Below, in pieces: positions 41,301 to 57,874 of a DNA stretch of 64,000 nt; positions within the stretch are counted from its first letter, which is position 1; the number at the start of each line of letters is the position of its first letter. Made by a program: the position numbers and the translations under genes. Under the pieces are notes generated by a model. The model saw nothing but the letters and a program-made list of their open reading frames with translations. It was not told where the DNA came from and did no database searches. The stretch spans positions 2,845,001 to 2,909,000 of the forward strand of contig NZ_JADBGB010000001.1 of assembly GCF_015220045.1 (NCBI RefSeq). The letters are read 5' to 3'. The DNA is from Marivivens aquimaris. GTDB taxonomy: Bacteria; Pseudomonadota; Alphaproteobacteria; Rhodobacterales; Rhodobacteraceae.

Positions 41301-42038
41301 TCAGCTGTTGAGGTCGATGTCTGGCAGAGAATCGAAGGCCGATTTCAGCGCCGTCCCCCAACCGTTCGAGATGGCGTGATACGAAGCATCATCCGCTGCA
41401 ATCCGGCGGCGGAGGCCTTGCTGGAATGTATCCGTCTCGTAGACTTGCAGATCGAGCGGCAAGCCGACCGACAGGTTCGCCTTGATGGTCGAATCGAACG
41501 ACACCAGAAGCAGTTTGGTCGCTTGCTCCCACGTCATGTCAGGCTCGAACGCACGAACGAGAATCGGTTTACCGTATTTGGTCTCGCCAATCTGGAAGAA
41601 TGGCGTGTCATCGCTGGCTTCGACGAAGTTGCCTTCGGGATAGACGAGGAACAGGCGCGGTTCGGAACCTTTGATCTGGCCGCCGAGAATCAGCGTCGCA
41701 TTGAACGTCGCATCGGCGCGCTGGCCGGTCATGGCGTTCTCGGCGATGGTTTCCTTGAGCATATCGCCCACCAGACGCGCGATCTGGAACATCGTCGGCG
41801 CTTGCATGATCGACGGCGCGCGATCCTCGGGCGCCTTGTTGCGCTCTTCGAGTTTGGAAATGACGGCCTGAGTCGTTGCGAGGTTACCGGCTGACAGGAT
41901 TGTGATGAAGCGCTCTCCGGGTTCGGAGAACGTCCGCATCTTGCAGAACGACGAAATGTTGTCGACACCCGCGTTCGTGCGCGTGTCGGACATGAATACC
42001 AGACCGTTGTTGAGCCGCATTCCTACGCAGTAGGTCAT
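41301..42038 (-). CDS. Anbu proteasome-like peptidase (bacterial proteasome homologue)
   Basis: A 245-residue Ntn-hydrolase of the Anbu family. The nucleophile Thr2 becomes residue 1 after Met removal (MTYCVGMRLNNGL), and Asp18 and Lys33 stand at the positions of the proteasome catalytic Asp17 and Lys33. There is no propeptide, as is usual for Anbu. It is the last gene of a four-gene minus-strand cluster with ATP-grasp, alpha-E and transglutaminase-like proteins, the conserved Anbu neighbourhood. The substrate and the cluster's role are not established. Confidence 0.93.
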   Translation of the reverse strand: MTYCVGMRLNNGLVFMSDTRTNAGVDNISSFCKMRTFSEPGERFITILSAGNLATTQAVISKLEERNKAPEDRAPSIMQAPTMFQIARLVGDMLKETIAENAMTGQRADATFNATLILGGQIKGSEPRLFLVYPEGNFVEASDDTPFFQIGETKYGKPILVRAFEPDMTWEQATKLLLVSFDSTIKANLSVGLPLDLQVYETDTFQQGLRRRIAADDASYHAISNGWGTALKSAFDSLPDIDLNS

Positions 42039-42050
42039 TGCCGGTTGCCT

Positions 42051-42854
42051 CTATTGCTGCACCTGTAGTTCGACAATGAGTTCTTCACTCGCACCGCCGA
42101 ACCGAGTGCCCGATATAGGTGCCGCGTCGTTATAGTCTAGTCCAGTTGCGACCCTTACATACCGTGTATCCGGCGAAATACCGTTCGATATATCGAATCC
42201 TACCCAGCCGAGACTCGGAACCAGCGCCTCTGCCCACGCATGTGTGGCTTCCTGTTCGATGCGGTCGTCCATCAACAGATAACCCGACACATATCGTGCG
42301 GGGACGCCGGCATGACGGCAGCATGCGAGGAAGATATGCGTGTGGTCCTGACAGACTCCGTGGCCCGCACTGATCGCGTCTTCAGCGGTCGTCATCGCGT
42401 CCGAGCGGCCCGTTTCATAGGCGACAGATTCAAGAATTGCCGCCGACAGCGCGTGGAGCCAGTCGAGCGTGCCGACCTCGCCATCCGTCTTCGACAGAAT
42501 CGAGCGGCAACCTGCACCCGGTTTGGTGAGCGGGGTCTGGTTTTCGAATAGCCAGCACGGTGCGTTGCCCGAATGCGGGCCATAGACGCCGTGGGTGTCC
42601 ACGATTTCGACGACGCCTTGGCTCACCAGCGTAACTTGCGTGGTGTTCGGCTCGAAGCTCACCAGCGTAACGTGGTTCTGATGGTGATCTTCATAGGACA
42701 GCTCGACTTTGCCGCCTTCGACCTGAATGTCCCATTCAAGCACAGTCTGGTTGCGCGTGCCTTTCGGCGTGACGCGCAACTGCTGGAGACCGAAGGGCAC
42801 GGGTTCGTCGTAGCTGTAGGTCGTACGGTGAATGATGTGCAGTTTCTGGGTCAT
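42051..42854 (-). CDS. Transglutaminase-like protein of the Anbu cluster
   Basis: A 267-residue cytosolic protein with an N-terminal beta domain (about 1-100) and a transglutaminase-like cysteine-protease fold. The triad is Cys168 (GHGVCQDHTHIF), His205 (THAWAEALVP) and Asp221 (VGFDISNG). It could form or cut amide bonds. The start overlaps the alpha-E gene by 4 bases and Anbu lies 12 bases downstream, so the set is one operon. It belongs to the COG1305 group found with Anbu. Confidence 0.92.
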   Translation of the reverse strand: MTQKLHIIHRTTYSYDEPVPFGLQQLRVTPKGTRNQTVLEWDIQVEGGKVELSYEDHHQNHVTLVSFEPNTTQVTLVSQGVVEIVDTHGVYGPHSGNAPCWLFENQTPLTKPGAGCRSILSKTDGEVGTLDWLHALSAAILESVAYETGRSDAMTTAEDAISAGHGVCQDHTHIFLACCRHAGVPARYVSGYLLMDDRIEQEATHAWAEALVPSLGWVGFDISNGISPDTRYVRVATGLDYNDAAPISGTRFGGASEELIVELQVQQ

Positions 42855-43792
42855 GCGTAGAACCTGTAATCGACTTCGATCTGGTTGCCGAGTTCGGCTA
42901 CGCTCTTCAGGTACTCCTGAATGAACTCGTGCAGACCGTCGTCGAGCACTTCGTCGATTGATCGTTGCATGGTCCGCAGCGCGAGCTTGTCCGCCATGTC
43001 ATGGCATTTCAGGCGCGTGCCGTAGTCCGCCATCAGATACCCGAGGTTATCGCGGATCTTGTCCGTACAGAACGACAGGCTGCGGGGCATACGCTTGTCC
43101 AGAATCAGGAACTGCGCGATTTCGCGGGGGCGTGGATCCTGCCCGTAGGAAATCTGGAAGCCGCCTTCGGCAGATACCGAACGCAGGATCGTCTGCCACT
43201 GGACGTTATCCAGCGACGAGCCGACCGACATCGCGGAGGGCAGCAGCACGTAGTACTTCACATCCAGAATGCGGGCGGTGTTGTCGGCGCGCTCCACGAA
43301 CGTCCCGATACGCGAGAAGTCGTAGAAGTCGTTGCGCAGCATGGTGCCGTGGGTCGCGCCGCGCACGTAGGCGGTCCGCTGACGGATCATCTGGAGCACT
43401 TCAGGAAGATCGCGTTCGGCAACCTTACGGGCGAGTTTGTTGCACAGAACCATGTAGCATTCGTTCACACCCTCCCAGACCTCGCGGGTCAGGGCGGTAC
43501 GTACGGTTTTGGCGTTGTTACGCGCCATGCAGATCAGGTTCAGGACGCTCGACGGGTTGTCCTTGTCGCGGAGCATCCAGTCGATGACCTGTTCGCGGGT
43601 GTAATCCGCGCCATATGCCGCCTGATAGCCCCAATGCATCGCGGCGGTTTCAAGAACGCTGGACCATTCGTCCTCACCCGATGGGCGGGTGAGCGACAGG
43701 CGCTGGCCTGCTTCGATCAGGCGCGCGGTATTTTCGGACCGTTCAAGGTAGCGGAACATCCAGTAGAGTCCGCCTGCAGTTTTTCCCAGCAT
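42851..43792 (-). CDS. Alpha-E domain protein of the Anbu cluster
   Basis: A 313-residue, largely helical protein of the alpha-E family (COG2307). LGKTAGGLYWMFRYLERSEN starts the protein in the typical way, followed by RLIEAGQRLSL and FVERADNTARILDVKYY. No catalytic motif is known. It is always found near circularly permuted ATP-grasp proteins such as the next upstream gene, 4 bases away, and is probably a partner of it. Confidence 0.92.
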   Translation of the reverse strand: MLGKTAGGLYWMFRYLERSENTARLIEAGQRLSLTRPSGEDEWSSVLETAAMHWGYQAAYGADYTREQVIDWMLRDKDNPSSVLNLICMARNNAKTVRTALTREVWEGVNECYMVLCNKLARKVAERDLPEVLQMIRQRTAYVRGATHGTMLRNDFYDFSRIGTFVERADNTARILDVKYYVLLPSAMSVGSSLDNVQWQTILRSVSAEGGFQISYGQDPRPREIAQFLILDKRMPRSLSFCTDKIRDNLGYLMADYGTRLKCHDMADKLALRTMQRSIDEVLDDGLHEFIQEYLKSVAELGNQIEVDYRFYA

Positions 43793-43796
43793 CGCG

Positions 43797-45224
43797 TTAC
43801 TCCTCCAGAACCCAAGTGTCCTTGGTCCCGCCGCCTTGGGACGAGTTCACAACGAGCGAGCCTTTTTTCAACGCAACGCGGGTCAGGCCGCCTGGCGTGA
43901 TGTCGACCTTATCGGGGCTGACGAGCACGAAAGGACGCAGGTCCACGTGGCGCGGTGCGAGGCCGGTGCGCGTGAACGTCGGAACAGTAGAGAGCGAAAG
44001 GGTCGGTTGAGCGATGTAGTTACCAGGGCGCGCTTTGAGCTTCTTGCGGAAGTCGGCGATGTCCTTCTTCGTCGCGGTCGGCCCGATCAGCATCCCGTAA
44101 CCACCCGATCCGTGAACCTCTTTTACGACGAGGTCTTCGAGGTTGTCGAGCACGTAGGACAGGCTTTCCGGGTCGTTGCAGCGCCAGGTCGGAACGTTCT
44201 TCAAAATGGCTTTTTCGCCGGTGTAGAACTCCACGATATCAGGCATGTAGCTGTAGATCGCCTTGTCGTCGGCGATGCCTGTGCCAGGTGCGTTTGCAAT
44301 GGTGATGTTGCCAGCGCGGTAGACGTCCATGATGCCCGGAATGCCGAGCGCCGATTCAGGATTGAAGTTCAGCGGGTCGAGGAATTCATCATCCACGCGG
44401 CGGTAAAGCACGTCGATCGGCTGGTAGCCTTCGGTCGTCCGCATCTGCACACGGCCATCGACCACGCGAAGGTCGTGACCCTCGACCAGTTCCACGCCCA
44501 TCTTGTCCGCAAGGAAGCTGTGTTCGTAGTAGGCAGAGTTGAAGATGCCCGGTGTCAGAACGGCCACGCGAGGGCGATCACCGGCGCAGTTCGGCGCGCA
44601 GGCTGCCAGAGAACGGCGAAGCATCTTGGGATAATTCGACACCTGCTGTACGCGGTTCCGGCTGAACAGCTCGGGGAACATCTGGAGCATGGTTTCGCGG
44701 TTTTCGAGCATATAGCTCACGCCTGACGGCGTCCGCGCATTGTCTTCCAGAACGTAGAATTCATCGGGGCCGGTACGAACAAGGTCGATACCGACAATGT
44801 GGGTGTAGACGCCGCCCGGAGGGGTCACGCCAATCATCTTGGGTTCGAATGCGACGTTCTTGGAGATCATCTCTGCCGGAATACGGCCTGCGCGCACGAT
44901 TTCCTGACGGTGATAGATGTCATGCAGGAAGGCATTAATCGCCCTGACACGCTGCTCGATCCCTCGGGACAGGCGGCTCCATTCGCGGCCGGAGATGATG
45001 TGCGGAATGATGTCGAAAGGGATCAGTCGCTCTGCAGCTTCTGCACGTCCATAAACGTTGAATGTGATGCCCGTGAGCCGGAATAGGTCATCCGCCTCGC
45101 GCTGTTTTTTACGTAATCTGGACGGATTTTCGCCCTGAAACCAGTTATTGAAATCTGCGTAGGGATCACGGATCGATTCTTGCCCGCTGCCCCACATTTC
45201 ATCGAAATTGACGCGGTCGTTCAT
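43797..45224 (-). CDS. Circularly permuted ATP-grasp protein of the Anbu cluster
   Basis: A 475-residue member of COG2308 (circularly permuted ATP-grasp type 2). Features include GREWSRLSRGIEQRVRAIN, YVLEDNARTPSGVSYMLEN, VKEVHGSGGYGMLIGP and LRPFVLVSPDK. ATP-grasp enzymes of this type are thought to form amide bonds, possibly peptide tags, but no product is known. ATG at 45224 gives the family's usual start; a longer frame reaches 45284. First gene of the Anbu operon. Confidence 0.92.
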   Translation of the reverse strand: MNDRVNFDEMWGSGQESIRDPYADFNNWFQGENPSRLRKKQREADDLFRLTGITFNVYGRAEAAERLIPFDIIPHIISGREWSRLSRGIEQRVRAINAFLHDIYHRQEIVRAGRIPAEMISKNVAFEPKMIGVTPPGGVYTHIVGIDLVRTGPDEFYVLEDNARTPSGVSYMLENRETMLQMFPELFSRNRVQQVSNYPKMLRRSLAACAPNCAGDRPRVAVLTPGIFNSAYYEHSFLADKMGVELVEGHDLRVVDGRVQMRTTEGYQPIDVLYRRVDDEFLDPLNFNPESALGIPGIMDVYRAGNITIANAPGTGIADDKAIYSYMPDIVEFYTGEKAILKNVPTWRCNDPESLSYVLDNLEDLVVKEVHGSGGYGMLIGPTATKKDIADFRKKLKARPGNYIAQPTLSLSTVPTFTRTGLAPRHVDLRPFVLVSPDKVDITPGGLTRVALKKGSLVVNSSQGGGTKDTWVLEE

Positions 45225-45341
45225 AGGATCAGAATGACTAGCTGTGCACGGATACACAACCGACGACTGCGATCTGGCAGTCATTAATCACTTTTCCGCT
45301 GAAAACTTGGGCGGTTTGTGAACGCGCATTCTTAAATGCGA

Positions 45342-45361
45342 AGGGCGCCGAGAGGCGCCCT
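45342..45361 (-). terminator. Hairpin downstream of pcaG
   Basis: An 8-bp stem (AGGGCGCC and GGCGCCCT) with a GAGA loop, 7 bases after the pcaG stop on the minus strand. The following bases are T-rich (TTCGCATTT), so it may terminate pcaHG. Confidence 0.65.
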
Positions 45362-45368
45362 CAACCTA

Positions 45369-45974
45369 TCAGAGATCAAAGAAGACTGTTTCGTCCGGAC
45401 CCTGCAAATGGATCTCGTGGCGGTATGTGTTTCCGTCCCGCTTTGCGATCAGTGTAGGAACGCGTGATTTCAGCTCGATGCGGGACAGGAACGGGTCGGC
45501 CTCGTTCGCTTCGGCCTCGTCATCGAAATAGACGCGGGTGGCGAGGGCGAGGTTTATGCCGCGTGCAGCGATCCACATCAGGACATGCGGGGCGTAGGTC
45601 TTGCCGTCGACGCTGACAGCGCCCGGTTTGATCGTCTCGAAGCGGAAGACGCCTGTGTCGTGGTCGGCGTGCTGACGACCAAAGCCTGTGAAATGCGGAT
45701 CGGCTTCGCGGCCATCTTCGGGCGAGGCGAAAACGCCGTTCGCGTCTGCCTGCCAGATCTCGACCATTGCGTCTTTGACCGGAGTGCCGGAGCCGTCGAA
45801 AATCACGGCTTCGATGTTGATGCGCTCGCCTTTCGCTTCGCCCGTAAACATCGTCGAGCCGAGGTCGGTGTCGAAGATCGTGTGGATGCCCGTCGTGTTC
45901 GGCATGCAGCCGATGTGGACGTAAGGGCCGGCGGTCTGCGACGCGGATTCTTTGAGCTTCGGTGCATAAGGCAT
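45369..45974 (-). CDS. pcaG: Protocatechuate 3,4-dioxygenase alpha subunit
   Basis: A 201-residue subunit of the ring-cleaving intradiol dioxygenase that opens protocatechuate to 3-carboxy-cis,cis-muconate. KESASQTAGPYVHIG opens it, and VEIWQADANGVFASP marks the intradiol dioxygenase fold. The iron ligands lie in the beta subunit, as expected. It follows pcaH by 3 bases. Confidence 0.95.
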   Translation of the reverse strand: MPYAPKLKESASQTAGPYVHIGCMPNTTGIHTIFDTDLGSTMFTGEAKGERINIEAVIFDGSGTPVKDAMVEIWQADANGVFASPEDGREADPHFTGFGRQHADHDTGVFRFETIKPGAVSVDGKTYAPHVLMWIAARGINLALATRVYFDDEAEANEADPFLSRIELKSRVPTLIAKRDGNTYRHEIHLQGPDETVFFDL

Positions 45975-45977
45975 GGC

Positions 45978-46700
45978 TTAGTTCCCTTCCTTACGGTTTT
46001 CGAAAACGGTGGAGCGCTTGCCACGCAGAACGATGTCGAAACGGTAGGCACGCATGTCGTGCGGACGCGAGTTGTGCATATCGAGGCGCGCAATCAGACG
46101 GTCGATTGCGTCCGCGTCGGGGATCGTTTTCACAATCGGGCAAAGCGCAATGTTCGGGTCGCCTTCGAAGTACATCTGGGTAATCAGGCGCTGGGCGAAG
46201 GCCGTACCAAACACCGAGAAGTGGATGTGCGCGGGGCGCCAGTCGTTTTTGCCGTTCGGCCACGGATAGGCCGCCGGACGGATGGTGAAAAAGTGGAAGT
46301 AGCCACTCTCGTCGGTCATCGTTCGGCCGCAACCACCGAAGTTCGGGTCGAGCGGCGCGAGGTAGGTGTCCTTCTTGTGGCGATAGCGACCACCGGCATT
46401 TGCCTGCCAGAATTCGACCAGCGTGTTACGGATGGGGCGGGCCTCTTCGTCGAGGACATAGCCGTGGACCATGATCCGCTCACCGATCGCGCTCTCGCCC
46501 GCTTGGGCGAAGTTGAGGATCAGGTTGTTATCCAATTCGCCGATCAGCGAATGACCGAAGGTCGGACCGGTGAACTCGGTCGGCGAGCCATCAAAGCCGA
46601 TGGGCGCCTTTTGCGGCGAGCGCAGGATCGATGTCCGGTACCCCGGTGTGTATGCGGGCGGGTGCATATTCAGGTCGCGGGGATAATACCCAGATTTCAT
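45978..46700 (-). CDS. pcaH: Protocatechuate 3,4-dioxygenase beta subunit
   Basis: A 240-residue catalytic subunit. The ferric-iron ligands are visible: Tyr in NAGGRYRHKKD, Tyr in AAYPWPNG, and two His in WRPAHIHFSVFG. LVEFWQANAGGRY is the intradiol signature. ATG at 46700 follows GGAGGAGGACAG. The pcaQ regulator diverges 123 bases away. The other protocatechuate genes (pcaB, C, D) are not in the window. Confidence 0.96.
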   Translation of the reverse strand: MKSGYYPRDLNMHPPAYTPGYRTSILRSPQKAPIGFDGSPTEFTGPTFGHSLIGELDNNLILNFAQAGESAIGERIMVHGYVLDEEARPIRNTLVEFWQANAGGRYRHKKDTYLAPLDPNFGGCGRTMTDESGYFHFFTIRPAAYPWPNGKNDWRPAHIHFSVFGTAFAQRLITQMYFEGDPNIALCPIVKTIPDADAIDRLIARLDMHNSRPHDMRAYRFDIVLRGKRSTVFENRKEGN

Positions 46701-46772
46701 CTGTCCTCCTCCAGCGCTCGGCGCGCTTTGGTCACTTCCTCGGGTGTTGAGGGATCGTGACTGATTGCTTTT

Positions 46773-46827
46773 GGAAAGTAAAATGACGATATGAAGTTTA
46801 TGATTTCCAGAATCGGAAAGTAAATGA
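46773..46827 (+). promoter_or_regulatory. Direct repeats in the pcaH/pcaQ intergenic region
   Basis: GGAAAGTAAAATGA (46773-46786) recurs 42 bases later as GGAAAGTAAATGA (46815-46827), the second copy including the pcaQ ribosome site and start. The inverted repeat TTTCC-N6-GGAAA (46804-46819) overlaps the second copy. These could be operator elements, but the published PcaQ site (ATAACC-N4-GGTTAA) is not seen. Confidence 0.3.
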
Positions 46828-47741
46828 TCGACCGCAGGATCAAATTCCGCCACATCCAGTGCTTCGTGGAAATTGCGCGGATGCAGAGCCTCAAGCAGGC
46901 CGCTGACCGGCTGTGTCTCACGCAGCCTGCGATTTCCAAGACGTTGAAAGAGCTCGAGGATATCCTTGGAAAAGCGTTGATGACGCGCAGTCGGGCGGGT
47001 GTGGAATTGACCCGCGAGGGCGAGGTGTTCCTCCAGTTCGCAGAGATGAGCGTCGGCGCGATCCAGCAGGGGATCGACAGCGTTGCGCAGTCGGGCGACA
47101 GCGGAAAACAGGTGCTGATCGTCGGGGCGTTGCCGTCGGTCGCCGCATGGCTGATGCCGGTCGTGGTGCAGGAATTTACGCAAATAGCGCCCGATGTGGT
47201 GCTGCGGATTATCGACGGTCAGCATGGCGTGCTGGTGGATCGGCTGCGACAAGGCGCGCTGGATCTTGTCATTGGTCGCCTTGGCTCGCCCGAGAGCATG
47301 GCGCAGGTGTCGTTCACCCAGCTTTACAACGAACAGGTCGATTTCGTCGTAAGGCCGGGGCATCCGATCCTTGATGACCCGCGGCTTGAGCGGATCGACG
47401 AATGGCAGGTGGTCTACCCGTCACCGGGGTCCGCGATCCTGCCGCTGGTTCAGCGCTATTTCCTCGCGCACGCCATAAGTGAGCCGCAGAACCGCATCGA
47501 AACGGTCTCGGGCGCTTATGGGCGGGTGTATGTGAGGAATTCCGACGCGGTCTGGATCATCTCGGCCGGAGTGGTCGCGAACGAGGTAGCCGAGGGCCGC
47601 TTGGTTCGCTTGCCGCTGGACACGTCACTGACGCGCGGGCCTGTTGGCCTCATGTCTCGACCTGAGGCTGAACAAACGCCGGCCGAACGCATGTTCCGGC
47701 TGGCGGTCAATCGGGCGCTGGCGTCGCTGGGGATCGGTTAG
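46824..47741 (+). CDS. pcaQ: LysR-type regulator PcaQ
   Basis: A 305-residue LysR-type activator. The winged-helix domain spans about residues 8-65 (IKFRHIQCFVEIARMQSLKQ; LTQPAISKTLKELEDILG) and the rest is a periplasmic-binding-like effector domain. Position, divergent from pcaHG, and the MIDRRIKFRHIQCF start match PcaQ, which activates protocatechuate genes in response to 3-carboxymuconate in rhizobia. Its end overlaps the next, converging gene by 4 bases. Confidence 0.9.
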   Translation: MIDRRIKFRHIQCFVEIARMQSLKQAADRLCLTQPAISKTLKELEDILGKALMTRSRAGVELTREGEVFLQFAEMSVGAIQQGIDSVAQSGDSGKQVLIVGALPSVAAWLMPVVVQEFTQIAPDVVLRIIDGQHGVLVDRLRQGALDLVIGRLGSPESMAQVSFTQLYNEQVDFVVRPGHPILDDPRLERIDEWQVVYPSPGSAILPLVQRYFLAHAISEPQNRIETVSGAYGRVYVRNSDAVWIISAGVVANEVAEGRLVRLPLDTSLTRGPVGLMSRPEAEQTPAERMFRLAVNRALASLGIG

Positions 47742-48763
47742 ATCCGATTCAGCGTCTCGCCGGGGTGCAGTTTTGGGGTGAGCTCGATGACGAGGCCTTC
47801 GTCCGCATCGGGATCGGCTACGCGGTTGGCGATGATCTTCGCCGCGCGCTCACCAACTTCACGGCGGCAGGCATCCATCGACGCCAGCTTACGCGGCAGA
47901 CCATCGAGAAGTTCGACGCCGTTGAAGCCCGCAAGGCCGATCTGACCCGGCACGTCGTAGCCCTTCTCCAACAAGTACAGCAGGCCGCCCGCACCGATCA
48001 TGTCGTTTGAGTAGTACAGAAAATCGAGGTCCGGCGTGCGCTTCAGCAGCGCTTCGGTCATCTCGCGGCCTTTCGCCAGCGCGGAGCCGCCCGAGTAGAA
48101 TTCCTGATCCGCGATCTCCAGACCGGCCTTGGCCAGTGTCTGGGTGAACCCTTCGAAACGCTTCCGCGCACGGTGGTCGAGCGGCATCTTGGTGCCGAGG
48201 AAGCCGATGCGTTTGAAACCGTTCTCAAGGATCGCCTCGGCCATCTTGCGGCCTGCGCGGCGGTGCGAAATGCCCACGCAGGCATCTACAGGCTCGCCGT
48301 CCACGTCCATGATTTCGACAACGGGACAACCCGCCTGCGCCAGCATCGCACGGGATGCTTCAGAGCGTTCAAGGCCCGCAATGATCACGCCCGACGGGCG
48401 CCAAGACAGCATCTCGAAAAGGACTTTTTCTTCTTTTTCAGGGCTATAGTCGGTCACGCCGACCACAGGCTGAAGGTCTGTGCCCGACAGAACGTCCGAA
48501 ATGCCCGAAAGCACTTCAGGGAAAACCATGTTGCCAAGGCTCGGAATGATGACCGCCACAAGATTCACGCGCTGCGACGCCAGAGCGCCCGCGATCTTGT
48601 TCGGCACATAGCCCAGACGTTTGGCAGCTTCCTGAACACGCAGGCGCGTCGCCTCGCTCACGTCGCCTTTGTTGCGCAGAACGCGGCTGACGGTCATTTC
48701 ACTGACGCCCGAAGCTTCGGAAACATCACGCAGTGTCAGGGGGCGGCGGTTCGTAGGTTTCAA
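47738..48763 (-). CDS. LacI-family transcriptional regulator
   Basis: A 341-residue regulator with an N-terminal LacI helix-turn-helix (TLRDVSEASGVSEMTVSRVL, hinge YVPNKIAGALASQRVNLVAV) and a periplasmic-binding-like effector domain. It resembles GntR-type gluconate repressors. No sugar operon is adjacent within the window, so the target is unknown. Confidence 0.9.
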   Translation of the reverse strand: MKPTNRRPLTLRDVSEASGVSEMTVSRVLRNKGDVSEATRLRVQEAAKRLGYVPNKIAGALASQRVNLVAVIIPSLGNMVFPEVLSGISDVLSGTDLQPVVGVTDYSPEKEEKVLFEMLSWRPSGVIIAGLERSEASRAMLAQAGCPVVEIMDVDGEPVDACVGISHRRAGRKMAEAILENGFKRIGFLGTKMPLDHRARKRFEGFTQTLAKAGLEIADQEFYSGGSALAKGREMTEALLKRTPDLDFLYYSNDMIGAGGLLYLLEKGYDVPGQIGLAGFNGVELLDGLPRKLASMDACRREVGERAAKIIANRVADPDADEGLVIELTPKLHPGETLNRI

Positions 48764-48881
48764 TGTGCTACCTTTGAGAGTGTCACGTTTTCTTTAACTA
48801 TCACCTCATACAGTACCAATCCAACCACGCAATGAGACAAGATTGACCTTCGTCTCAATCTTGGGCAATCAGTGCGGCGAT

Positions 48882-48958
48882 GGCCCCGTGGCTCAACTGG
48901 ATAGAGCAGCCCCCTCCTAAGGGGCAGGTTACAGGTTCGAATCCTGTCGGGGTCACCA
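48882..48958 (+). tRNA. tRNA-Arg (CCT)
   Basis: A 77-base gene. Acceptor GGCCCCG pairs with CGGGGTC, anticodon loop CTCCTAA gives CCT at 48916-48918, T-arm ACAGGTTCGAATCCTGT, CCA encoded. Its 3' part is repeated at 49982-50028, so the gene is used as an integration site and remains intact. Confidence 0.97.
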
Positions 48959-48963
48959 TCACC
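48917..48963. repeat. Attachment-site repeat, left copy (tRNA-Arg 3' end)
   Basis: 47 bases covering the 3' part of tRNA-Arg(CCT) and 5 bases beyond. They match 49982-50028 with one mismatch (48922 against 49987); the last 41 bases (48923-48963) are identical. This fits a site-specific recombination repeat of the tRNA type. Confidence 0.85.
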
Positions 48964-49057
48964 TTCATTTAGATATGATGAGTCGCAAGAAACATTTACT
49001 TGTGTTTCGAGAGTATATTTAACCCATACTACGTAATTAGTGAGTAGTTTAAATTAG

Positions 49058-49957
49058 ATGAGCCATAGATTTTCCGAGTTGAAGTACACTGACACTGATG
49101 TACTTGCCCTCTATATTAAGTACCGAGAAGCTGATATTGGACCATTTACAAGAGAGGTGGGCGATTTCATTGCGCATAGTCGTCGAGATCGAGGCGCAAC
49201 TCTCGATCGAACTGCCTACATGTTTTCGCAATTGGCATTTTTCCAAAAATATCAGAGCAATACGCGAACTGAATTAGATTTTTGGGGGGAGTGCCCTTGG
49301 TGGATGAAGTCTTGGTTTTTGGGTAAAATTGAGCGCGAGCCTATGTCGGTTCTAAAGAGGATTTCAGGTCTAAATAAGAAACCATTGGTTCGTGAAGTAA
49401 AGTCTTGGTTCAACGGTAGTGAGGCATACTCAACTCAGCTTGTTTGCAAAAATCCAAAGCTTTACTACAATTTGGCTCAGCATTTTAGTCGTATGATTTC
49501 TGGGGAATCTGTATTTTCTTCCCACGAAGTTCGGAAAGAGCTTATCAAGCTACTTGAGCTAGAGAGCATTTCTCGATCCGAACTTGAACCGGTAATCGTG
49601 GCTACTGCGGTCTTGCTTCAATCGAAATCTGCTGAAATCGTTGCCAACTTCGCCGCAAATGTCAGGCTCAGTGTGCACCCAACGCGCACTCATCCAGCCG
49701 TTCCGCCGCCCGGAAAAACAGGCAAATACGTGAACATTTTGCCTGACGGAAATTTGAAAATTTCAGTTTCGACACAAAATGATACAGGCGATGGTTTGGT
49801 CAATGTTGCGCTGGATCTATTTGATACTGGAATCGATACTGAGAAGTACTTCTCCCGTTCGCTTGTCGAGATCGATGAGCACGGTTTCCCAGTTCTGAAT
49901 CTAGAAAGGAAACTTGCATTTGAACGGAGTGCTGAACAGATGGTTTTTCCAGTGTAG
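49058..49957 (+). CDS. Unrecognised 299-residue protein of the tRNA-Arg insertion
   Basis: A 299-residue soluble protein with no signal peptide, membrane segment or motif I recognise. The N-terminal two thirds look helical, with aromatic stretches such as DFWGECPWWMKSWFLG and WFNGSEAYSTQLVC. The last third is more polar and beta-like (KYVNILPDGNLKISVS; DEHGFPVLNLERKLAFER). The reading frame is long and AT-rich in a high-GC chromosome, which favours recent acquisition. Only a weak ribosome site precedes the ATG. The position, as sole cargo of a tRNA insertion, recalls single-gene defence or fitness cargo, but the sequence gives no direct proof. Confidence 0.8.
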   Translation: MSHRFSELKYTDTDVLALYIKYREADIGPFTREVGDFIAHSRRDRGATLDRTAYMFSQLAFFQKYQSNTRTELDFWGECPWWMKSWFLGKIEREPMSVLKRISGLNKKPLVREVKSWFNGSEAYSTQLVCKNPKLYYNLAQHFSRMISGESVFSSHEVRKELIKLLELESISRSELEPVIVATAVLLQSKSAEIVANFAANVRLSVHPTRTHPAVPPPGKTGKYVNILPDGNLKISVSTQNDTGDGLVNVALDLFDTGIDTEKYFSRSLVEIDEHGFPVLNLERKLAFERSAEQMVFPV

Positions 49958-49981
49958 AAAATAGGGGCTACTTCCTCGCTT

Positions 49982-50028
49982 CTAAGAGGCAGGTTACAGG
50001 TTCGAATCCTGTCGGGGTCACCATCACC
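49982..50028. repeat. Attachment-site repeat, right copy
   Basis: Right-hand copy of the tRNA-Arg 3' end, ending in CCATCACC, with one mismatch to the left copy. Upstream of it the sequence departs from the tRNA (CTTCTAAG against CTCCTAAG), so it is not an intact tRNA gene. Confidence 0.85.
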
Positions 50029-50032
50029 CACA

Positions 50033-50737
50033 TCAGGTCATGCGGATGACGTCCTTGTCGATGGCGAGCATGTAGCCGCGGCGGGCGATGTTTTTCACGA
50101 GCAGTTCGCTAATCATCTGGTTGCCGAGCGTGTCGCGCAGGCGTTTGATCCGCGTGGCACCTGCGGCTTCATCACAGTCTGACGGATCGCGGCCCGATAT
50201 GACGGCTTCGATCTGGAGGCCGGACATGACTTCGTCGTCCATGCGCGCTTCGGCCAGAACGGCGAGCGTTTCGATGGATGCTTCGGTCAGTTTGAATTCG
50301 AAATCATTCAGCGTGACCGTATTCTGGTCGCGGCTGATGACGAGCGAATTGATCTCGATCCCTGCACGTTCGATCTTACTCATGCGGCGGTTCATCTCGA
50401 TCAGCATGACAAGGAAAGCGACGGCCGCGATCAGTAGGGCGGTCGCAAAGACGAACAGCACGAAAATGACGAAGCGGTATGAGGCAAGCGTGTCCTGAAA
50501 CGCCGTGCCGGATTGGGCGAGGATTTCCAGCAGCTTGAGCTCTGCCTGCGCTGTCAGGTCATCATTCTGGATGAACAGCTGCTCGACACGGGCGTTGAAC
50601 GCGTTCGCATCGGGAAGGTTCGCGAACAGCACAACGGCTGCCAGAACGAGGACCAGAACAACTGCCGAAATGCCCGCAACCACGACGCGGTTACCTGCCT
50701 TCAGCGATTCAGAAGCGGAGAAAATTTTCGCCTGCAC
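50033..50737 (-). CDS. Membrane-anchored protein with C-terminal winged-helix domain
   Basis: A 234-residue protein with two membrane segments (about 18-40 and 89-113), a periplasmic loop of about 48 residues between them, and a cytoplasmic C-terminal domain (130-230) resembling an OmpR-type winged helix: ATRIKRLRDTLG as the recognition region and LVKNIARRGYML at the wing. This is the reverse of ToxR/CadC order. GTG at 50737 is chosen because GAAAGG lies 7 bases before it. The 5' end overlaps the small secreted gene by 29 bases. No phosphorylation site. Confidence 0.7.
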   Translation of the reverse strand: MQAKIFSASESLKAGNRVVVAGISAVVLVLVLAAVVLFANLPDANAFNARVEQLFIQNDDLTAQAELKLLEILAQSGTAFQDTLASYRFVIFVLFVFATALLIAAVAFLVMLIEMNRRMSKIERAGIEINSLVISRDQNTVTLNDFEFKLTEASIETLAVLAEARMDDEVMSGLQIEAVISGRDPSDCDEAAGATRIKRLRDTLGNQMISELLVKNIARRGYMLAIDKDVIRMT

Positions 50738-50984
50738 TATCGCGCCTTTCTTCCAGTCCGTTCTCGTCGAACACGCTGACAATATTCAGCAGTATCCAGC
50801 CCGCACCTTCAAGACGCGGAGCCAGTTCGTTTGCGGCTGCCTCGATTTCGCAGGCGCCGTTGATCTGAGCGACCCCGTACTGCAATCGCAGCGGGTCGTC
50901 TTGCTTGGCCTTGTAGTCGGCGTAGCAGTCGGCCTGAGCCGCCGTACCGAGCAGTGCCAGAACGATGGGAAGTATGTGTTTCAT
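50709..50984 (-). CDS. Small secreted protein, two cysteines
   Basis: A 91-residue protein with a signal peptide (MKHILPIVLALLGTAAQADC). The mature part has two cysteines, near its start (DCYADY) and centre (GACEIE), which may form a disulfide. It lies upstream of, and overlaps by 29 bases, the membrane-anchored winged-helix gene, so it could be its periplasmic partner. Function unknown. Confidence 0.7.
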   Translation of the reverse strand: MKHILPIVLALLGTAAQADCYADYKAKQDDPLRLQYGVAQINGACEIEAAANELAPRLEGAGWILLNIVSVFDENGLEERRDSAGENFLRF

Positions 50985-51140
50985 GATGCGCTTAAATGAA
51001 CAGAGCGGGGGCAGCTATTCAATAACACTTCGCGCCAGATGCCTTTCAAAGGCGCGTTATTGTCTGACAGGGCGATTTGGACCGATCACCGTGGCAAGCG
51101 CTGCACGACGCGGCGCATCTATGCCACGGAGGAGGTCCAC

Positions 51141-51650
51141 ATGCGAAACGCTCTCATTGCCGGCCTGGTTGCTGCCGCTCTTTCCCTTGCCAACCCTGCT
51201 GCAGCGCAGACAGCGAATAGCAATAATAATGATGATATCGGCAAGCTGATCGTCGGGCTCACGTTCCTCGCGCTTGTCGGGACCGCGCTGTCCAAAAAGG
51301 ACGACATGCCGCCCGCGCCGGAAACTGCCGAGAATGATGACCACCGCGATTGGGACCGACGCAACGATTTTTTCCGCGACGACCGCCATGACCGCGACAA
51401 CAACGGCCGCTGGACCGACAACCATCCGTCAGAGCTGACCCGCGCGTTGCCTGCGCAGTGTCTGCAAGGGGTGCCGACCTACAACGGTCCGGTGTCGATC
51501 TACACGTCGGAATGCCTTCAACAGAACCGCGTGCAAATCACGCGGCTTCCCGGAAACTGCGCACGTCAGGTGCGCGGGGTTCGTGACGAACACTACGGGT
51601 TCGATCCGGACTGCCTGAGCAGCTATGGTTTCAACATGTTGCGCAGGTAA
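51141..51650 (+). CDS. Secreted protein of unknown function
   Basis: A 169-residue protein with a signal peptide ending in PAAAQTANS. After a hydrophobic stretch (GKLIVGLTFLALVGTAL) comes a charged Asp/Arg/His-rich linker (about 60-100), then a domain of about 70 residues with four cysteines (LPAQCLQGV; TSECLQQ; GNCARQV; PDCLSSYG). It resembles secreted proteins common in Roseobacter relatives. The ATG at 51141 follows CGGAGGAGGTCCAC. Confidence 0.75.
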   Translation: MRNALIAGLVAAALSLANPAAAQTANSNNNDDIGKLIVGLTFLALVGTALSKKDDMPPAPETAENDDHRDWDRRNDFFRDDRHDRDNNGRWTDNHPSELTRALPAQCLQGVPTYNGPVSIYTSECLQQNRVQITRLPGNCARQVRGVRDEHYGFDPDCLSSYGFNMLRR

Positions 51651-51744
51651 ATTCCTGACAGGGAGGAGGCGCGCGAAACCCCGATAGCGCGCCACCAGCG
51701 GGGCAGGGGGTTCCAACAGCCCTCTGCCCCATCTATCAGAAGGC

Positions 51745-52368
51745 ATGACCAAGACTGTTCCCGATCTGAGTTTCGAACTGGCCGCGCGAGAGCGCGGTTT
51801 TCTGCGTATCGCCGGTGTGGACGAAGTGGGGCGCGGCCCGCTTTGCGGACCCGTGACCGCCTGCGCCGTGGTGTTGGATTTAGAAAAGGTACCCGAGGGC
51901 CTGAACGATTCAAAAAAGCTGAACGCGAAGCAACGCAATGCCGCGCTGGAAGCTCTGCTCGACGTGGCCGAGGTGTCGATTGCCCACGCGACGGTCGAGG
52001 AAATTGACGAGATCAACATCTACCACGCCTCGCACCTCGCGATGGTCCGTGCGGTCGAAAGGCTTTCTATCCAGCCTGATCATGTGCTCGTAGATGGCAA
52101 TCGCCTCCCCAAGGCGCTCCCGATGTCAGCCGAAGCGATCGTTAAAGGCGATGCGCGGTCTGTGTCGATTGCTGCCGCTTCCATTGCCGCCAAAATCTGC
52201 CGAGACCGCTTGATGGTGGACTTGGCGCAACAGTATCCAGGCTACGGTTGGGAGCGGAACGCGGGTTACGGAACGGCAGAACACCTTGCTGCGCTTAGAG
52301 AATTTGGCGTCACGCCGGTTCATAGACGGTCCTTCAAGCCCGTCCACAATATCTTGTATCAAGAGTAA
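51745..52368 (+). CDS. rnhB: Ribonuclease HII
   Basis: A 207-residue endonuclease that removes ribonucleotides from DNA and RNA primers. The motif AGVDEVGRGPLCGPV carries the first acidic residues; others lie in VDGNRLPKAL and ASIAAKICRDRLM. GYGWERNAGYGTAEHLAAL is a family signature. It precedes ccrM, the usual order in this clade. Confidence 0.96.
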   Translation: MTKTVPDLSFELAARERGFLRIAGVDEVGRGPLCGPVTACAVVLDLEKVPEGLNDSKKLNAKQRNAALEALLDVAEVSIAHATVEEIDEINIYHASHLAMVRAVERLSIQPDHVLVDGNRLPKALPMSAEAIVKGDARSVSIAAASIAAKICRDRLMVDLAQQYPGYGWERNAGYGTAEHLAALREFGVTPVHRRSFKPVHNILYQE

Positions 52369-52381
52369 AACGTAAGCTCTT

Positions 52382-52425
52382 GATTCAATAAAGCTTTTGA
52401 CACCGCTCCTTCTCTGCCCCATTTT
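52382..52425 (+). promoter_or_regulatory. Possible ccrM promoter with a GANTC site
   Basis: The rnhB-ccrM gap contains a GATTC (GANTC) site at 52382-52386 and TTGACA at 52397-52402, followed 17 bases later by CATTTT, a weak -10 box. GANTC sites in the ccrM promoter let the methyltransferase feed back on itself in Caulobacter. The promoter is inference from sequence. Confidence 0.4.
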
Positions 52426-52473
52426 AGCCATCAACCAGAGAGCGGAAAAATCCGCCGGTTAACGAGGCAGTAA

Positions 52474-53583
<1,110 letters not shown>

Positions 53584-53644
53584 TCTTTCTACCAGTTACC
53601 GCCGGAGCCTCCGACCCTGCTCGGTCGAAGTAGGCTCTAACTTA

Positions 53645-53673
53645 CCCCGCCGTCATGAACGGCGGGGCTTTTT
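53645..53673 (+). terminator. Terminator after ccrM
   Basis: An 8-bp stem (CCCCGCCG and CGGCGGGG) with a 7-base loop and CTTTTT tail, 61 bases after the ccrM stop. Confidence 0.88.
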
Positions 53674-53703
53674 GGCAAAGATTTTTATCAATCTTTTCCC
53701 GTA

Positions 53704-54264
53704 TTAGGCAGCAGCGCGCTGATGCTCGCCTTCTTCGATTTCCTCGACAATTTTCGCAACAAACGCCGGAAGGTCGTTCGGATTGCGCGACGTGATCAGG
53801 CCCTTGTCGGTCACGACTTCCTTGTCGTGCCAGTCACCGCCAGCATTGACGATGTCGGTCTTGATCGAATTGTACGAGGTAACCTTCTTGCCCTTCACGA
53901 TACCTGCTTCGACCAGCAGCCACGGTGCGTGACAGATCGCAGCAACGGTCTTGCCTTCGTTGTAGAAGGTTTTGATCAGGTCAACGGCTTCGGGAATGGT
54001 GCGCAGGATGTCGGGGTTGATTTGGCCGCCAGGCAGGACAATCGCGTCATAGTCGGCAGCCTTCACATCGGCGAGCGCGAGGTCGGCTTTGACTTCATTA
54101 CCCCAGTCCTTTTCGTCCCAGCCCTTGATGGCCTCACCATCAGGCGATGCGACGTGGACGGTGGCGCCTTTGCCTTTCAGCTCGTGCAGCGGGGTTTCGA
54201 GTTCCGACTGTTCGAAACCGTTGGTGGCGAGGATAAGGATTTTTGCTTCGGTAATCTTCGGCAT
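53704..54264 (-). CDS. DJ-1/PfpI-family protein
   Basis: A 186-residue protein of the DJ-1/PfpI class I glutamine-amidotransferase-like fold. The nucleophile elbow is AAICHAPWLL with the reactive Cys, and an upstream Glu lies in NGFEQSELE. DAIVLPGGQINPD and TSRNPNDLPAFV are typical of PfpI/YhbO members, which act as glyoxalases or deglycases. GGAGG precedes the ATG at 54264. Confidence 0.93.
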   Translation of the reverse strand: MPKITEAKILILATNGFEQSELETPLHELKGKGATVHVASPDGEAIKGWDEKDWGNEVKADLALADVKAADYDAIVLPGGQINPDILRTIPEAVDLIKTFYNEGKTVAAICHAPWLLVEAGIVKGKKVTSYNSIKTDIVNAGGDWHDKEVVTDKGLITSRNPNDLPAFVAKIVEEIEEGEHQRAAA

Positions 54265-54303
54265 GGGAGCCTCCTGATTGAATTTCATTTGGCCGGAAAA
54301 CCA

Positions 54304-54408
54304 ATGAAACAGGGGCTTTGTTCCTACTGCCGGACTGACATCGTTGTGAGCCGCACTGTTACCGCGGCATCGGGTTGGTGCCCTTTTTGTAGGGCGTCCA
54401 GTCGGTGA
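54304..54408 (+). CDS. Possible 34-residue zinc-ribbon microprotein
   Basis: A 34-residue frame with CSYC and, 16 residues later, CPFC, the spacing of a small zinc ribbon. It starts 40 bases from the divergent PfpI-type gene and its last 50 bases overlap the 3' end of alkB on the other strand. GGAAAAC upstream is a modest ribosome site. Very short and may be chance. Confidence 0.25.
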   Translation: MKQGLCSYCRTDIVVSRTVTAASGWCPFCRASSR

Positions 54409-55489
54409 TGTCGGGGTAATACGTTCGCCGCCAAGCACGGACTTTGGGGTTCATCCAGCGCCGCCAGACGGGCGGAACCATCGCCGCCATTGCCATCATA
54501 GGATAACCGAACGGAAGCTGAGGCGCTTCGACCTCGGGGTAGGTCTGGAGCAGCGGAAAACGACGGTCGGGGCGGTAGTGATGGTCGGAGTGGCGCTGCA
54601 AATTGATCAGCAACCAGTTCGACGCCTTGTGCGCGGCGTTCCACGAATGATGCGGACGAACGGGCTCGTATTTGCCATCGCCCAGATGGCGGCGGGTCAG
54701 GCCGTAGTGTTCGACGTAATTCGTCAGCTCCAGCGCCCAGATGCCGACAAAAGCCTGGACGACGAACAGGCCGACGCCCTCCCAGCCCCCGATCCAAGCG
54801 GCGAAGACGATCATCCAGAATTGCATCGCAAGATAGCGCCAGAACGGATTGCTGATGTGCCACCATGGCAGCTTCTTGCGGGCGAGCATCCGCTTTTCAG
54901 CCTTGAACGCGGACGGCGGGCAGGTGCGCAAAACGCGCGCGAAGTAACGGTGAAATCCTTCGTTGTACCGCGCGGTGACTGCATCGCGCGGCGTGCCGAC
55001 GTAGACGTGGTGAACCAGTAGGTGCTCGGTCCGGAAGTGTGAGTAAAGCGCCATTGCCAGCAGCACGTCGCCTAACCACCGTTCGAGGCGGTTTCTTTGG
55101 TGCAGCAACTCATGCGCATAGACGATCCCGATGGTACCGGTCAGGACGCCGACGTCGAACATCACACCGATCTTGCCCCATGTGCTGAGGTGGTCGGTGT
55201 GTGTGATGTACGCCAGTAGCCCGAAGATCAGGCCAAGTTGCACCGGCGGCCAGATCATCGTGATCAGCTTGTACCAGAACAGCTGGGGATCGGGCGTTTC
55301 GGGATCGGGATTCGCATCACTCAGGCCCGCGAACGAGTCGATCACGGTGAACAGGTGCCATGCCAGAAGCGGCGTCAGCAGGATCGTCCAGCCGCCGTAG
55401 ATTGCGGCGATCACCGGCAGAGGCACCAAAGCGAGCGACAACCAGAATGGCGCGGCGTTCACGAATGATACCTGAGCTTTGGCGGACAT
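54359..55489 (-). CDS. alkB: Alkane 1-monooxygenase
   Basis: A 376-residue integral-membrane di-iron hydroxylase that oxidises alkanes at the terminal carbon. The conserved histidine boxes are present: AHELLHQRN (His126, His130), TEHLLVHHVYVG (His156, His160, His161) and LQRHSDHHYRPD, plus NYVEHYGLTR specific to AlkB. Several membrane helices surround them. No rubredoxin gene is adjacent. Length is slightly below 400, normal for this clade. Confidence 0.94.
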   Translation of the reverse strand: MSAKAQVSFVNAAPFWLSLALVPLPVIAAIYGGWTILLTPLLAWHLFTVIDSFAGLSDANPDPETPDPQLFWYKLITMIWPPVQLGLIFGLLAYITHTDHLSTWGKIGVMFDVGVLTGTIGIVYAHELLHQRNRLERWLGDVLLAMALYSHFRTEHLLVHHVYVGTPRDAVTARYNEGFHRYFARVLRTCPPSAFKAEKRMLARKKLPWWHISNPFWRYLAMQFWMIVFAAWIGGWEGVGLFVVQAFVGIWALELTNYVEHYGLTRRHLGDGKYEPVRPHHSWNAAHKASNWLLINLQRHSDHHYRPDRRFPLLQTYPEVEAPQLPFGYPMMAMAAMVPPVWRRWMNPKVRAWRRTYYPDITDWTPYKKGTNPMPR

Positions 55490-55516
55490 GTCCTGTTCCC
55501 TTTGACTACCGCGACG

Positions 55517-56593
55517 CTACTGCTCTGACCTGCTATCGGCAACCGGAACGAATGTCGCTGCCGCAAGGTCGTAGACCTTTCGCATCACAGTGGGGAGCGA
55601 TGACGGTTTGAAGTCGTGCTTGCCGATGAGAACGGCATTCTCCGGCTCGGCCCCCTGTGGAAGCTCGGCGGTATGGACCTTCAGACGCAGATGAAAATGC
55701 GTGAAGGTATGCAGCGCTTCGGCATTCAGCGTGGTCCAGTTGCCGTCGAACGGCGGGGCGGGGGGCGGATCATCGCTCCAATCCGACCCGGGCCAGCCAA
55801 GCATACCGCCGAGCATTCCTTTTTCGGGCCGCGTTTCCAGCAGCCAAGCCCCATCGGCGCGGCGGGCGACGTAGGCGTGGCCGAAACGGGTGGGCACCTT
55901 CTTCTTTGGCAGTTTGCGCGGCAGGCTTGCTGCAGTGCCTTCGGCGCGGGCAACACAAGGTTCGCGCCACGGGCAGATACCACACGCGGGATTGCGCGGC
56001 GTGCAGATGGTCGCGCCGAGGTCCATGACAGCCTGAGCATAGTCGCCGGGACGTTCGTCAGGCGTCAGGTCGCGGGCCAGTTCGGTCAGTTCGGGCTTCG
56101 ACGTCGGCAGTGGTGTTTCGACGTTGTAGAGCCGTGACATCACCCGCTCGACATTGCCGTCCACGACCACTTCAGAGCGGTTGAACGCAATCGAAGACAC
56201 GGCGCCAGCCGTGTAAGGCCCAACCCCAGGCAATTTCAGCAGCCCTTCGCGGGTGTCGGGAAACTTGCCGCCGTGATCGTCGACAACGGCACGGGCGCAC
56301 TTCAGCAGGTTGCGCGCGCGGGCGTAGTAACCGAGGCCCGCCCATTCGGCCATGACATCGGCATCTTCGGCGGCGGCCAGATCGGCGACGGTCGGCCATT
56401 TCTCGGTAAATCGATGGAAGTAATCCTTGACCGCAGCGACCGTGGTTTGCTGTAGCATGATCTCGGACATCCACACGCGATAGGGATCGGGCAGAACGCC
56501 GTCCTTGCGGTCTTGCGGCGAAACCCGCCATGGCATGACCCGCGCATGGGTGTCATACCATTCCAAGAGAATATCACTTAAACCGTCACGCAA
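55517..56593 (-). CDS. mutY: A/G-specific adenine glycosylase
   Basis: A 358-residue base-excision repair enzyme that removes adenine opposite 8-oxoguanine. The helix-hairpin-helix is LLKLPGVGPYTAGAV with the catalytic Asp in VVVDGNVERV; the 4Fe-4S cysteines are in CTPRNPACGICPWREPC; SEIMLQQTTV is also typical. The C-terminal NUDIX-like domain (about 230-350) recognises 8-oxoG. It diverges from the DUF721 gene. Confidence 0.96.
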   Translation of the reverse strand: MRDGLSDILLEWYDTHARVMPWRVSPQDRKDGVLPDPYRVWMSEIMLQQTTVAAVKDYFHRFTEKWPTVADLAAAEDADVMAEWAGLGYYARARNLLKCARAVVDDHGGKFPDTREGLLKLPGVGPYTAGAVSSIAFNRSEVVVDGNVERVMSRLYNVETPLPTSKPELTELARDLTPDERPGDYAQAVMDLGATICTPRNPACGICPWREPCVARAEGTAASLPRKLPKKKVPTRFGHAYVARRADGAWLLETRPEKGMLGGMLGWPGSDWSDDPPPAPPFDGNWTTLNAEALHTFTHFHLRLKVHTAELPQGAEPENAVLIGKHDFKPSSLPTVMRKVYDLAAATFVPVADSRSEQ

Positions 56594-56647
56594 TCTTTAG
56601 CCCCTGTAACAGTGGTTTTGCTGGCACCTGCCGTACCTGCCGATAAG

Positions 56648-57169
56648 ATGACCCCCAAGATGACAAAAGATCGATCCAGAGGAACCACCCGCGGTTTTGC
56701 CCGCGCTGTCACGCTGATGCAAACCCGCATCCGCACCGCGACAGAGTCCCGTGGTTTCGCCGTATCCCGCGTCATCACGCACTGGGAAGATATCGTCGGA
56801 AGTGGCATCGCCGGAATAGCCCGTCCGGTCAACATTTCGTATGGCCGAGAGGGCATGGGCGCAACCCTTACCGTTCTGACGACCGGTGCGCAGGCTCCGA
56901 TGCTGGAAATGCAGAAAGAGCAGATCCTGAACAAGGTGAACAGCTGCTACGGCTACCGCGCCATTTCCCGCATCAGGATCACGCAGACCGCTCCGACCGG
57001 ATTTGCCGAAGGGCAGGTCCAGTTCAAACAGAAAACCAAAACGGTTGCCGCACTTGATCCCGTGGTCGTGAAAGAGGCAAAGTCGATGGGAGAGAGCGTG
57101 GGAAATGATGACCTGCGCCTTGCCCTCGAAAGCCTTGCAACCAATGTACTTAGCAAACGCAAAACCTGA
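56648..57169 (+). CDS. DUF721 (DciA-like) protein
   Basis: A 173-residue basic protein. The N-terminal DUF721 core (ITHWEDIVGSGIAGIARPVN; GATLTVLTTGAQAPMLEMQK) is that of DciA, which helps load the replicative helicase in bacteria lacking DnaC. The C-terminal part is less conserved. The start at 56648 is uncertain. It is followed at 12 bases by the dsbA-like gene, an arrangement common in the clade. Confidence 0.85.
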   Translation: MTPKMTKDRSRGTTRGFARAVTLMQTRIRTATESRGFAVSRVITHWEDIVGSGIAGIARPVNISYGREGMGATLTVLTTGAQAPMLEMQKEQILNKVNSCYGYRAISRIRITQTAPTGFAEGQVQFKQKTKTVAALDPVVVKEAKSMGESVGNDDLRLALESLATNVLSKRKT

Positions 57170-57181
57170 CAGAGGCCAAAT

Positions 57182-57874
57182 ATGAACCGACGCCAATACC
57201 TGACCGCCACGACCGCCATGGCTTTCGCCAGCATAATCGGCGTTCCGGCCTTCGCACAGGATGAGACCGAGTCGCTTATTCCTGACATGGTACTGGGCGA
57301 CCCCGATGCGCCGGTCGAAGTGATCGAATACGCATCCTTCACCTGCCCGCACTGCGCCAACTTCGAAGCGAACCAGTTCAAGGAAATTAAGGCGAACTAC
57401 ATCGACACCGGCAAGGTCCGTTTTGTCTTCCGCGAAGTGTACTTCGACCGTTACGGCCTCTGGGCGTCGATGATCGCCCGTTGTGGCGGTCAGATGCGCT
57501 TCTTCGGCATTACCGAAATGGTATTCGCCAAGCAGCGTGAATGGACCCAAGGCGAGCCGGCACAGATCGCTGCAAACCTACGCTCGATCGGTAAGGCTGC
57601 CGGTCTGGACGATGCCTCGCTCGACGCATGTATGCAGGACGCCGAAATGGCCCAGAACCTGATCTCTTGGTACGAAACCAACGCAGAGCGTGACAACATT
57701 GAAGGCACCCCGAGCTTCATGATCCAGGGTCAGAAGTACTCTAACATGGCTTATGACGACTTCGCCAAGATTCTGGACGAAGAGCTTGAAAAGGCGGGCT
57801 GGACCGAAGAAGCTGCCACCGAGGAAGCACCCGCAGAAGCGGATGCGGAAGGCGAAGAAACCAAGACTGAATGA
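57182..57874 (+). CDS. DsbA-family thiol-disulfide protein
   Basis: A 230-residue exported protein: signal peptide with RRQYLTATTAMAFA and cleavage near AFAQ, then a thioredoxin fold with the active site Cys55-Pro-His-Cys58 (TCPHCAN) and a cis-proline in GTPSFMI. It probably oxidises or isomerises disulfides in the periplasm. An acidic Glu/Ala-rich tail follows the fold. It overlaps the CoA transferase gene by 4 bases. Confidence 0.93.
   Translation: MNRRQYLTATTAMAFASIIGVPAFAQDETESLIPDMVLGDPDAPVEVIEYASFTCPHCANFEANQFKEIKANYIDTGKVRFVFREVYFDRYGLWASMIARCGGQMRFFGITEMVFAKQREWTQGEPAQIAANLRSIGKAAGLDDASLDACMQDAEMAQNLISWYETNAERDNIEGTPSFMIQGQKYSNMAYDDFAKILDEELEKAGWTEEAATEEAPAEADAEGEETKTE

Follow-up and report, generated by a model that had tools for sequence, protein, structure and literature searches.

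A one-gene insertion of integrase-less islet type at the 3′ part of tRNA-Arg(CCT) in Marivivens aquimaris

Structure of the tRNA-Arg(CCT) locus

A stretch of 64,000 nt (hereafter the window) from the genome of Marivivens aquimaris (GCF_015220045.1, contig NZ_JADBGB010000001.1, forward strand 2,845,001–2,909,000; genome G000 in the comparisons below) was analyzed in this study. An intact tRNA-Arg(CCT) gene is located at 48882..48958 on the plus strand (ARAGORN; Rfam tRNA, 66.5 bits) and is the target gene, the 3′ part of which serves as the left attachment site. Its left neighbour, on the minus strand (47738..48763), encodes a LacI-type regulator according to Pfam, and tblastn located this gene beside the tRNA in relatives as well. 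On the other side lies a minus-strand gene for a 249-aa protein with a weak Pfam match (50033..50782), which is retained at the empty site and is 100% identical in the related genome G003. This weak match, below the cut-off, is to a C-terminal winged-helix domain (Trans_reg_C), and the gene is present in 27 of the 29 relatives examined.

Between the tRNA and the right neighbour, the blocks 48914–48968 and 49979–50033 form a direct repeat with 93% identity over 55 nt and a start-to-start spacing of 1065. They contain the core of the left attachment site (attL, 48923..48963, plus strand) and that of the right one (attR, 49988..50028, plus strand), which are identical over 41 nt, so that both boundaries of the unit carry a tRNA 3′-end repeat. 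Base-by-base comparison also bore out the initial annotation, which had described 47-base repeats of the tRNA-Arg(CCT) 3′ end with one mismatch. The only other direct repeats of at least 28 nt in the window are the tandem tRNA-Lys genes and one 28-nt pair (79%), and a search of the 4.05-Mb genome that allowed up to three mismatches located a 36-nt part of the core at these two positions only; the repeat pair is therefore not due to chance. The two tandem tRNA-Lys(TTT) genes (41006–41259), with starts 178 bp apart, lie inside a 112-nt repeat that is 88% identical and has tRNA-like bases in common with the tRNA-Arg(CCT) repeat.

The inserted unit is 1,065 bp in length (48964..50028, no strand assigned), its exact position being ambiguous inside the 41-nt core. 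It consists of a left arm of 94 nt with 29.8% GC and no assigned ORF (48964..49057; composition and k-mer scan), a single called gene on the plus strand encoding a 299-aa protein of an orphan family (49058..49957), a right spacer of 21 nt between the stop codon and the distal repeat block (49958..49978), and the distal repeat itself. The 1,024 bp that separate the 41-nt cores contain no second called gene, and the 299-aa protein has no match in Pfam, integrase families included, in keeping with the single gene and missing recombinase reported from the sequence at the outset. The GC content between the repeats is 0.431 (0.298 in the left arm and 0.444 in the gene) versus 0.598 in the window, which agrees with the AT-rich insert of about 1 kb first noticed, and GC at third codon positions is 0.43 in the 299-aa gene versus 0.71–0.73 in four other genes. 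By composition the insert is foreign DNA, and it is positioned like an integrated mobile element. A scan for arm-type binding sites found neither direct nor inverted 8-mers shared between the ends of the insert and no 7-mer repeats in the left arm, and a simple scan detected neither a terminator nor, ahead of the start codon, any sequence resembling a sigma-70 promoter.

Comparison with empty sites

Seven genomes of the genus were sampled, among which G003 is closest to G000 and G002 is more distant. Window positions 29222–64000 (34.8 kb) align to G003 in two blocks, 29222–48963 and 49979–64000, with 92.9 and 92.6% identity, small indels included, and the 1,065-base insert is all that separates them. 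G003 has one copy of the repeat: window position 48963 corresponds to position 1550 of the G003 stretch (L002) and window position 49979 to position 1501, which gives an overlap of 50 bases. In 500-bp bins, identity to G003 shows no dip on either side of the insert.

The sequences around the two cores mirror each other. On the upstream side of the core, attL has the sequence of the G003 site, and attR is tRNA-like but diverged. On the downstream side, attR has the G003 sequence, with two differences over the 54 bases that follow the 36-mer, and attL does not. This is the arrangement expected from recombination between an attP carrying the 3′ half of the tRNA and a chromosomal attB.

Empty sites with a single repeat copy occur in both G003 and G002, which upholds the integrated-element reading of the initial annotation. 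The opposite case, in which all relatives would carry the gene and share the repeat pair with no empty site, is contradicted by the other six genomes of the genus, in none of which the 299-aa gene was found: G002, G003, G005, and G006 gave no profile match, and a DNA search across all seven genomes found no match on the gene outside G000. The 1,065-bp unit is thus an insertion at the 3′ part of tRNA-Arg(CCT) that is present in G000 and missing from its close relatives, and its site-specific integration is well supported.

Occupancy of the site in relatives

Occupancy of the site was surveyed in 29 relatives, represented by 35 stretches. In 11 of the relatives, the stretch contains both the tRNA and the right-neighbour gene (12 genomes with G000); in the remaining 18 genomes one of the two was missing from the stretch, lying elsewhere, on another contig, or farther off. 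The site is empty in half of the 12 (G002, G003, G008, G012, G018, and G025). The right-neighbour gene directly adjoins tRNA-Arg(CCT) in G008, G012, and G018, and likewise in G025, where the tRNA was placed by BLAST only. The six filled sites hold 1,065 bp in G000, ∼15.6 kb in G004, 955 bp in G005, ∼14 kb in G006, ∼2.5 kb in G022, and ∼1.2 kb in G024. By parsimony, this pattern indicates that the 1,065 bp were inserted in the G000 lineage. The two genes that enclose the site are conserved, and its content varies.

Other cargo at the site, for which a check of relatives had been proposed, includes an integrase-bearing island that ends in the same distal repeat. In G006, a gene for a 404-aa integrase-like protein comes after the tRNA, with an island of 13 kb and a distal repeat of 46 nt; the protein matched only the central domain of integrases, below the Pfam cut-off. 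G001 carries at the same place an integrase fragment that is 48% identical to the 404-aa protein over 84 aa before the contig ends. G007 has 14 kb, including a gene for a PF00589 protein, enclosed by tRNA-Arg(CCT) and a 47-nt repeat; this is another neighbourhood, since neither of the window's flanking genes was found there. The islands and integrases of G006, G001, and G007 show that tRNA-Arg(CCT) is a used integration site in the family. Some of the variable DNA at the site lacks two att copies: no second repeat copy was found at the occupied sites of G004, G005, G022, and G024. By blastn (E 1e-4), the insert with its arms has no similarity to the islands of G001, G004, G006, and G007 beyond the tRNA copies.

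Two further features of these sites were observed. The ∼15.6 kb at the G004 site (L044:1792-17381) contains, from a reading of its ORFs, apparent genes for sugar uptake and catabolism, with no distal repeat detected. G005 and G006 (L043:14727-15483 and L045:1851-2607) have adjacent ORFs of 113 and 115 aa, apparent paralogues of each other, between tRNA-Arg(CCT), or the distal repeat of the island, and the right neighbour; the pair is missing here in G002, G003, and G000, and no second att copy was seen beside it in G005.

The recombinase

No recognisable recombinase is encoded in the insert, the single ORF of which has no Pfam match, so the unit lacks a recognisable integrase of its own, which would mark an autonomous element. 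G000 carries 10 PF00589 loci. None of them matched the 404-aa integrase of G006, the 364-aa integrase of G007, or the fragment of G001 at E 1e-3, a dissimilarity that does not amount to inability to act, and no tRNA was found in the stretches of the ten loci. The G006 island also contains a 200-aa recombinase-like ORF, which weakly matched one of the PF00589 loci of G000 (24% identity, E 1e-6). The kind of target and the integrases in relatives suggest that the responsible enzyme was a tyrosine recombinase.

Comparison with known systems

The islet is minimal and of the type of the cis-mobilizable elements (CIMEs): it has both repeats, an empty site in G003, and no recognisable recombinase. 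Formation of CIMEs by loss of integration genes has been described, and by definition attL and attR are kept and integration and transfer genes are absent, as found here (PMC5704250). CIMEs share with the islet the att sites on both sides and the absence of integration and transfer genes; the islet differs in being 1,065 bp long with one gene and in having no integrase-bearing element in tandem at its site, and its mobility is putative (PMC5704250). At the ssrA gene of Dehalococcoides, 15 islands without an integration module have been reported (PMC3146451). They resemble the islet in being bounded by RNA-gene 3′-end repeats and in carrying cargo only, with no recombinase; however, those islands are in tandem with others that have a serine-recombinase module, whereas G000 has a single islet at a tRNA gene (PMC3146451).

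Integrase-bearing islands and prophages in tRNA genes, such as the 13-kb island of G006, have the same target and the same kind of 3′-end repeat, but an integrase and other backbone genes are missing from the islet of G000. Hitch-hiking elements such as phage satellites, CALINs, and MITEs depend on a recombinase from another element, as the islet presumably does. Unlike these classes, the islet has no recognised packaging, replication, or regulatory gene, and its ends are tRNA-end repeats in place of recognised cassette sites or transposon ends (PMC11389934).

A literature search combining four terms on tRNA-Arg islands in Rhodobacteraceae found no paper. The islet is a real and clean case of a known kind, and we do not claim one-gene islets as unreported. 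It shows how little DNA suffices for an insertion at a tRNA site, and islets of this sort would probably escape island-detection programs that require an integrase or set a minimum size. The more interesting questions concern its mobility in trans and the function of its cargo, a member of an uncharacterised, patchy family with a confident predicted structure. The empty site, the integrase islands of relatives at the same tRNA, and the exact 41-nt core together make a direct test of integration in trans possible.

The cargo gene family

Homologs of the 299-aa protein were retrieved by phmmer (53 proteins) and by a profile search (65 proteins), with identities of 35–100%; one of them (P0001) is the window's own. 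Their lengths are mostly about 300 aa (178 to 318), and an alignment of 40 rows has 30 invariant columns. The seven named sources are Alloyangia, Bradyrhizobium, Agrobacterium, Xanthobacter, Hyphomonas, Mesorhizobium, and Niveispirillum, all of which we take to be Alphaproteobacteria. Searches of Pfam, NCBIfam, PADLOC, PHROGs, and PDB sequences gave no significant match. The AlphaFold2 model of the protein is confident (pLDDT 92.9, pTM 0.86); its N-terminal part is helical and its C-terminal part is rich in beta structure, two strands of which are long. Fold searches with this model returned no significant match of any kind.

Profile searches found the gene in 5 of 394 genomes of the family, 2 of 390 of the order, and 1 of 385 of the class, in overlapping draws that each count G000. 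In the order of the Bradyrhizobium genome G1028, the count was 2 of 397 with G1028 included, one of the two being a 65-residue match at E 1.7e-5. A pattern search yielded five loci from 156 matches on genome contigs and one from 18 on viral contigs; since the viral contig, L032, and G601 represent one and the same DNA, the distinct contexts number seven. The gene is AT-richer than its locus in all six contexts measured, G598 being left out, with extremes of 48.6 versus 53.0% GC in G587 and 31.7 versus 61.9% in Niveispirillum. The family is rare, patchy, and AT-rich and is without recognised relatives outside itself.

These contexts differ. In G587, the family member is next to a Dsr1-like SIR2 protein, and in G601 it lies ∼1.2 kb from a type III restriction–modification pair. 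In G598, a broken member (L051:5310-6213) is located ∼160–170 bp from the 3′ end of a tRNA-Ser(CGA), with no second tRNA copy in the 2.5 kb searched. In G577 and in Niveispirillum, the gene stands alone among what we read as ordinary chromosomal genes, and in Bradyrhizobium it is at a contig end. No tRNA was found in the available stretch for five of the seven contexts, among which L031 ends near the gene at a contig end. Among the repeats listed for L031, L032, L033, L034, L040, and L051, there were only short or weak ones and no att-like pair bounding the gene, and when relatives of G577, G598, and Niveispirillum were searched for empty sites, no clean border emerged. Patchiness, AT-richness, and differing contexts form the pattern of an accessory gene that travels. 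The SIR2-domain protein of G587 has 1201 aa (L052:6146-9748), and its best PADLOC match to Dsr1, one of three matching stretches in all, spans residues 5–318; apparent IS21-type genes lie farther left of the broken member on L051 of G598.

Defence genes are beside or near the family member in two of five contexts, a raw count of selected neighbours without a baseline that leaves out G598 and the window's neighbours. No defence genes were identified among the 10 neighbours in L031, L033, and L034, and the 299-aa protein matched no described defence family in PADLOC at E up to 10. A role of the cargo in phage defence is the leading guess, to which these neighbours give a weak hint. The ORF in the islet is intact and is probably kept for a conditional benefit.

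Origin and mechanism of insertion

Our main reading, with a probability of roughly 0.6, is that the unit is an integrase-less islet decayed from a larger island of which attL, one cargo gene, and attR remain. A tyrosine recombinase recognising tRNA-Arg(CCT) would have joined a circular attP with the 3′ half of the tRNA to the chromosome; this enzyme would have come from outside the islet, and G000 yielded no recognisable counterpart. A larger island was most likely the start, and its integrase and other genes would then have been deleted, for which a single deletion, from the left arm up to the gene, would be enough. The islet would now move only if an integrase of matching specificity entered the cell, or be carried along passively when its flanks move. 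No trace of a parental island was detected: no remnant gene was found, the arms (94 and about 30 nt) are too short for a useful remnant search, and at tRNA-Arg(CCT) the searches turned up no larger island with a member of the cargo family.

The unit is compact, as would be expected both of a remnant and of an element born small; a remnant and dependence on a recombinase in trans were the two options raised by the initial annotation. If the element was born small, a ∼1-kb circle with attP would have been integrated in trans by the integrase of a phage or island and would represent a minimal hitch-hiking element. The compact ends, the intact ORF, and the lack of any trace of lost genes would agree with such an origin, as would the insert's resemblance to none of the islands compared, and the islands of relatives at tRNA-Arg(CCT) carry integrases that could act in trans. 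However, the 10 PF00589 loci of G000 are unlike the three island integrases (one a fragment) at the same E 1e-3, and no flanking direct repeats stood out, among the repeats listed, in six regions of other family members, which indicates that the cargo gene is not regularly packaged with att repeats. We consider a small origin possible and prefer decay. The broader proposal of a minimal mobile unit that borrows tRNA-Arg(CCT) integrases and carries a new single-gene anti-phage family with an undescribed fold appears doubtful as a whole.

Homologous recombination offers another route, in which the islet was already flanked by repeats in a donor and was imported through its flanks by transformation or a gene transfer agent. 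Units recombined through their flanks in this way are named minimal mobile elements, and gene transfer agents are commonly made by Rhodobacterales. The variable slot between two conserved genes suits such an import, but the even identity to G003 across the bins on both sides means that no long donor flank is visible, and the origin of the repeats would be left unexplained. We regard this route as quite unlikely.

It is more improbable still that the 299-aa protein is itself a site-specific recombinase, of a new kind, and that the islet is autonomous. The protein is the product of the only gene in the islet and belongs to no known family, and its G598 relative also adjoins a tRNA 3′ end (tRNA-Ser); yet the five contexts in which no tRNA was found (with L031 cut by the contig end near the gene), the six regions in which no flanking direct repeats stood out among those listed, and the confident model with no significant fold match all speak against it. 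Equally slight is the chance that a contaminating fragment was joined at the 41-nt repeat during assembly: the genome is listed with 4.68% contamination and the junctions are inside the repeat, but two joins within the same 41 nt would be needed in a 3.29-Mb contig, and they would have to give an exact attL and attR with host outer flanks.
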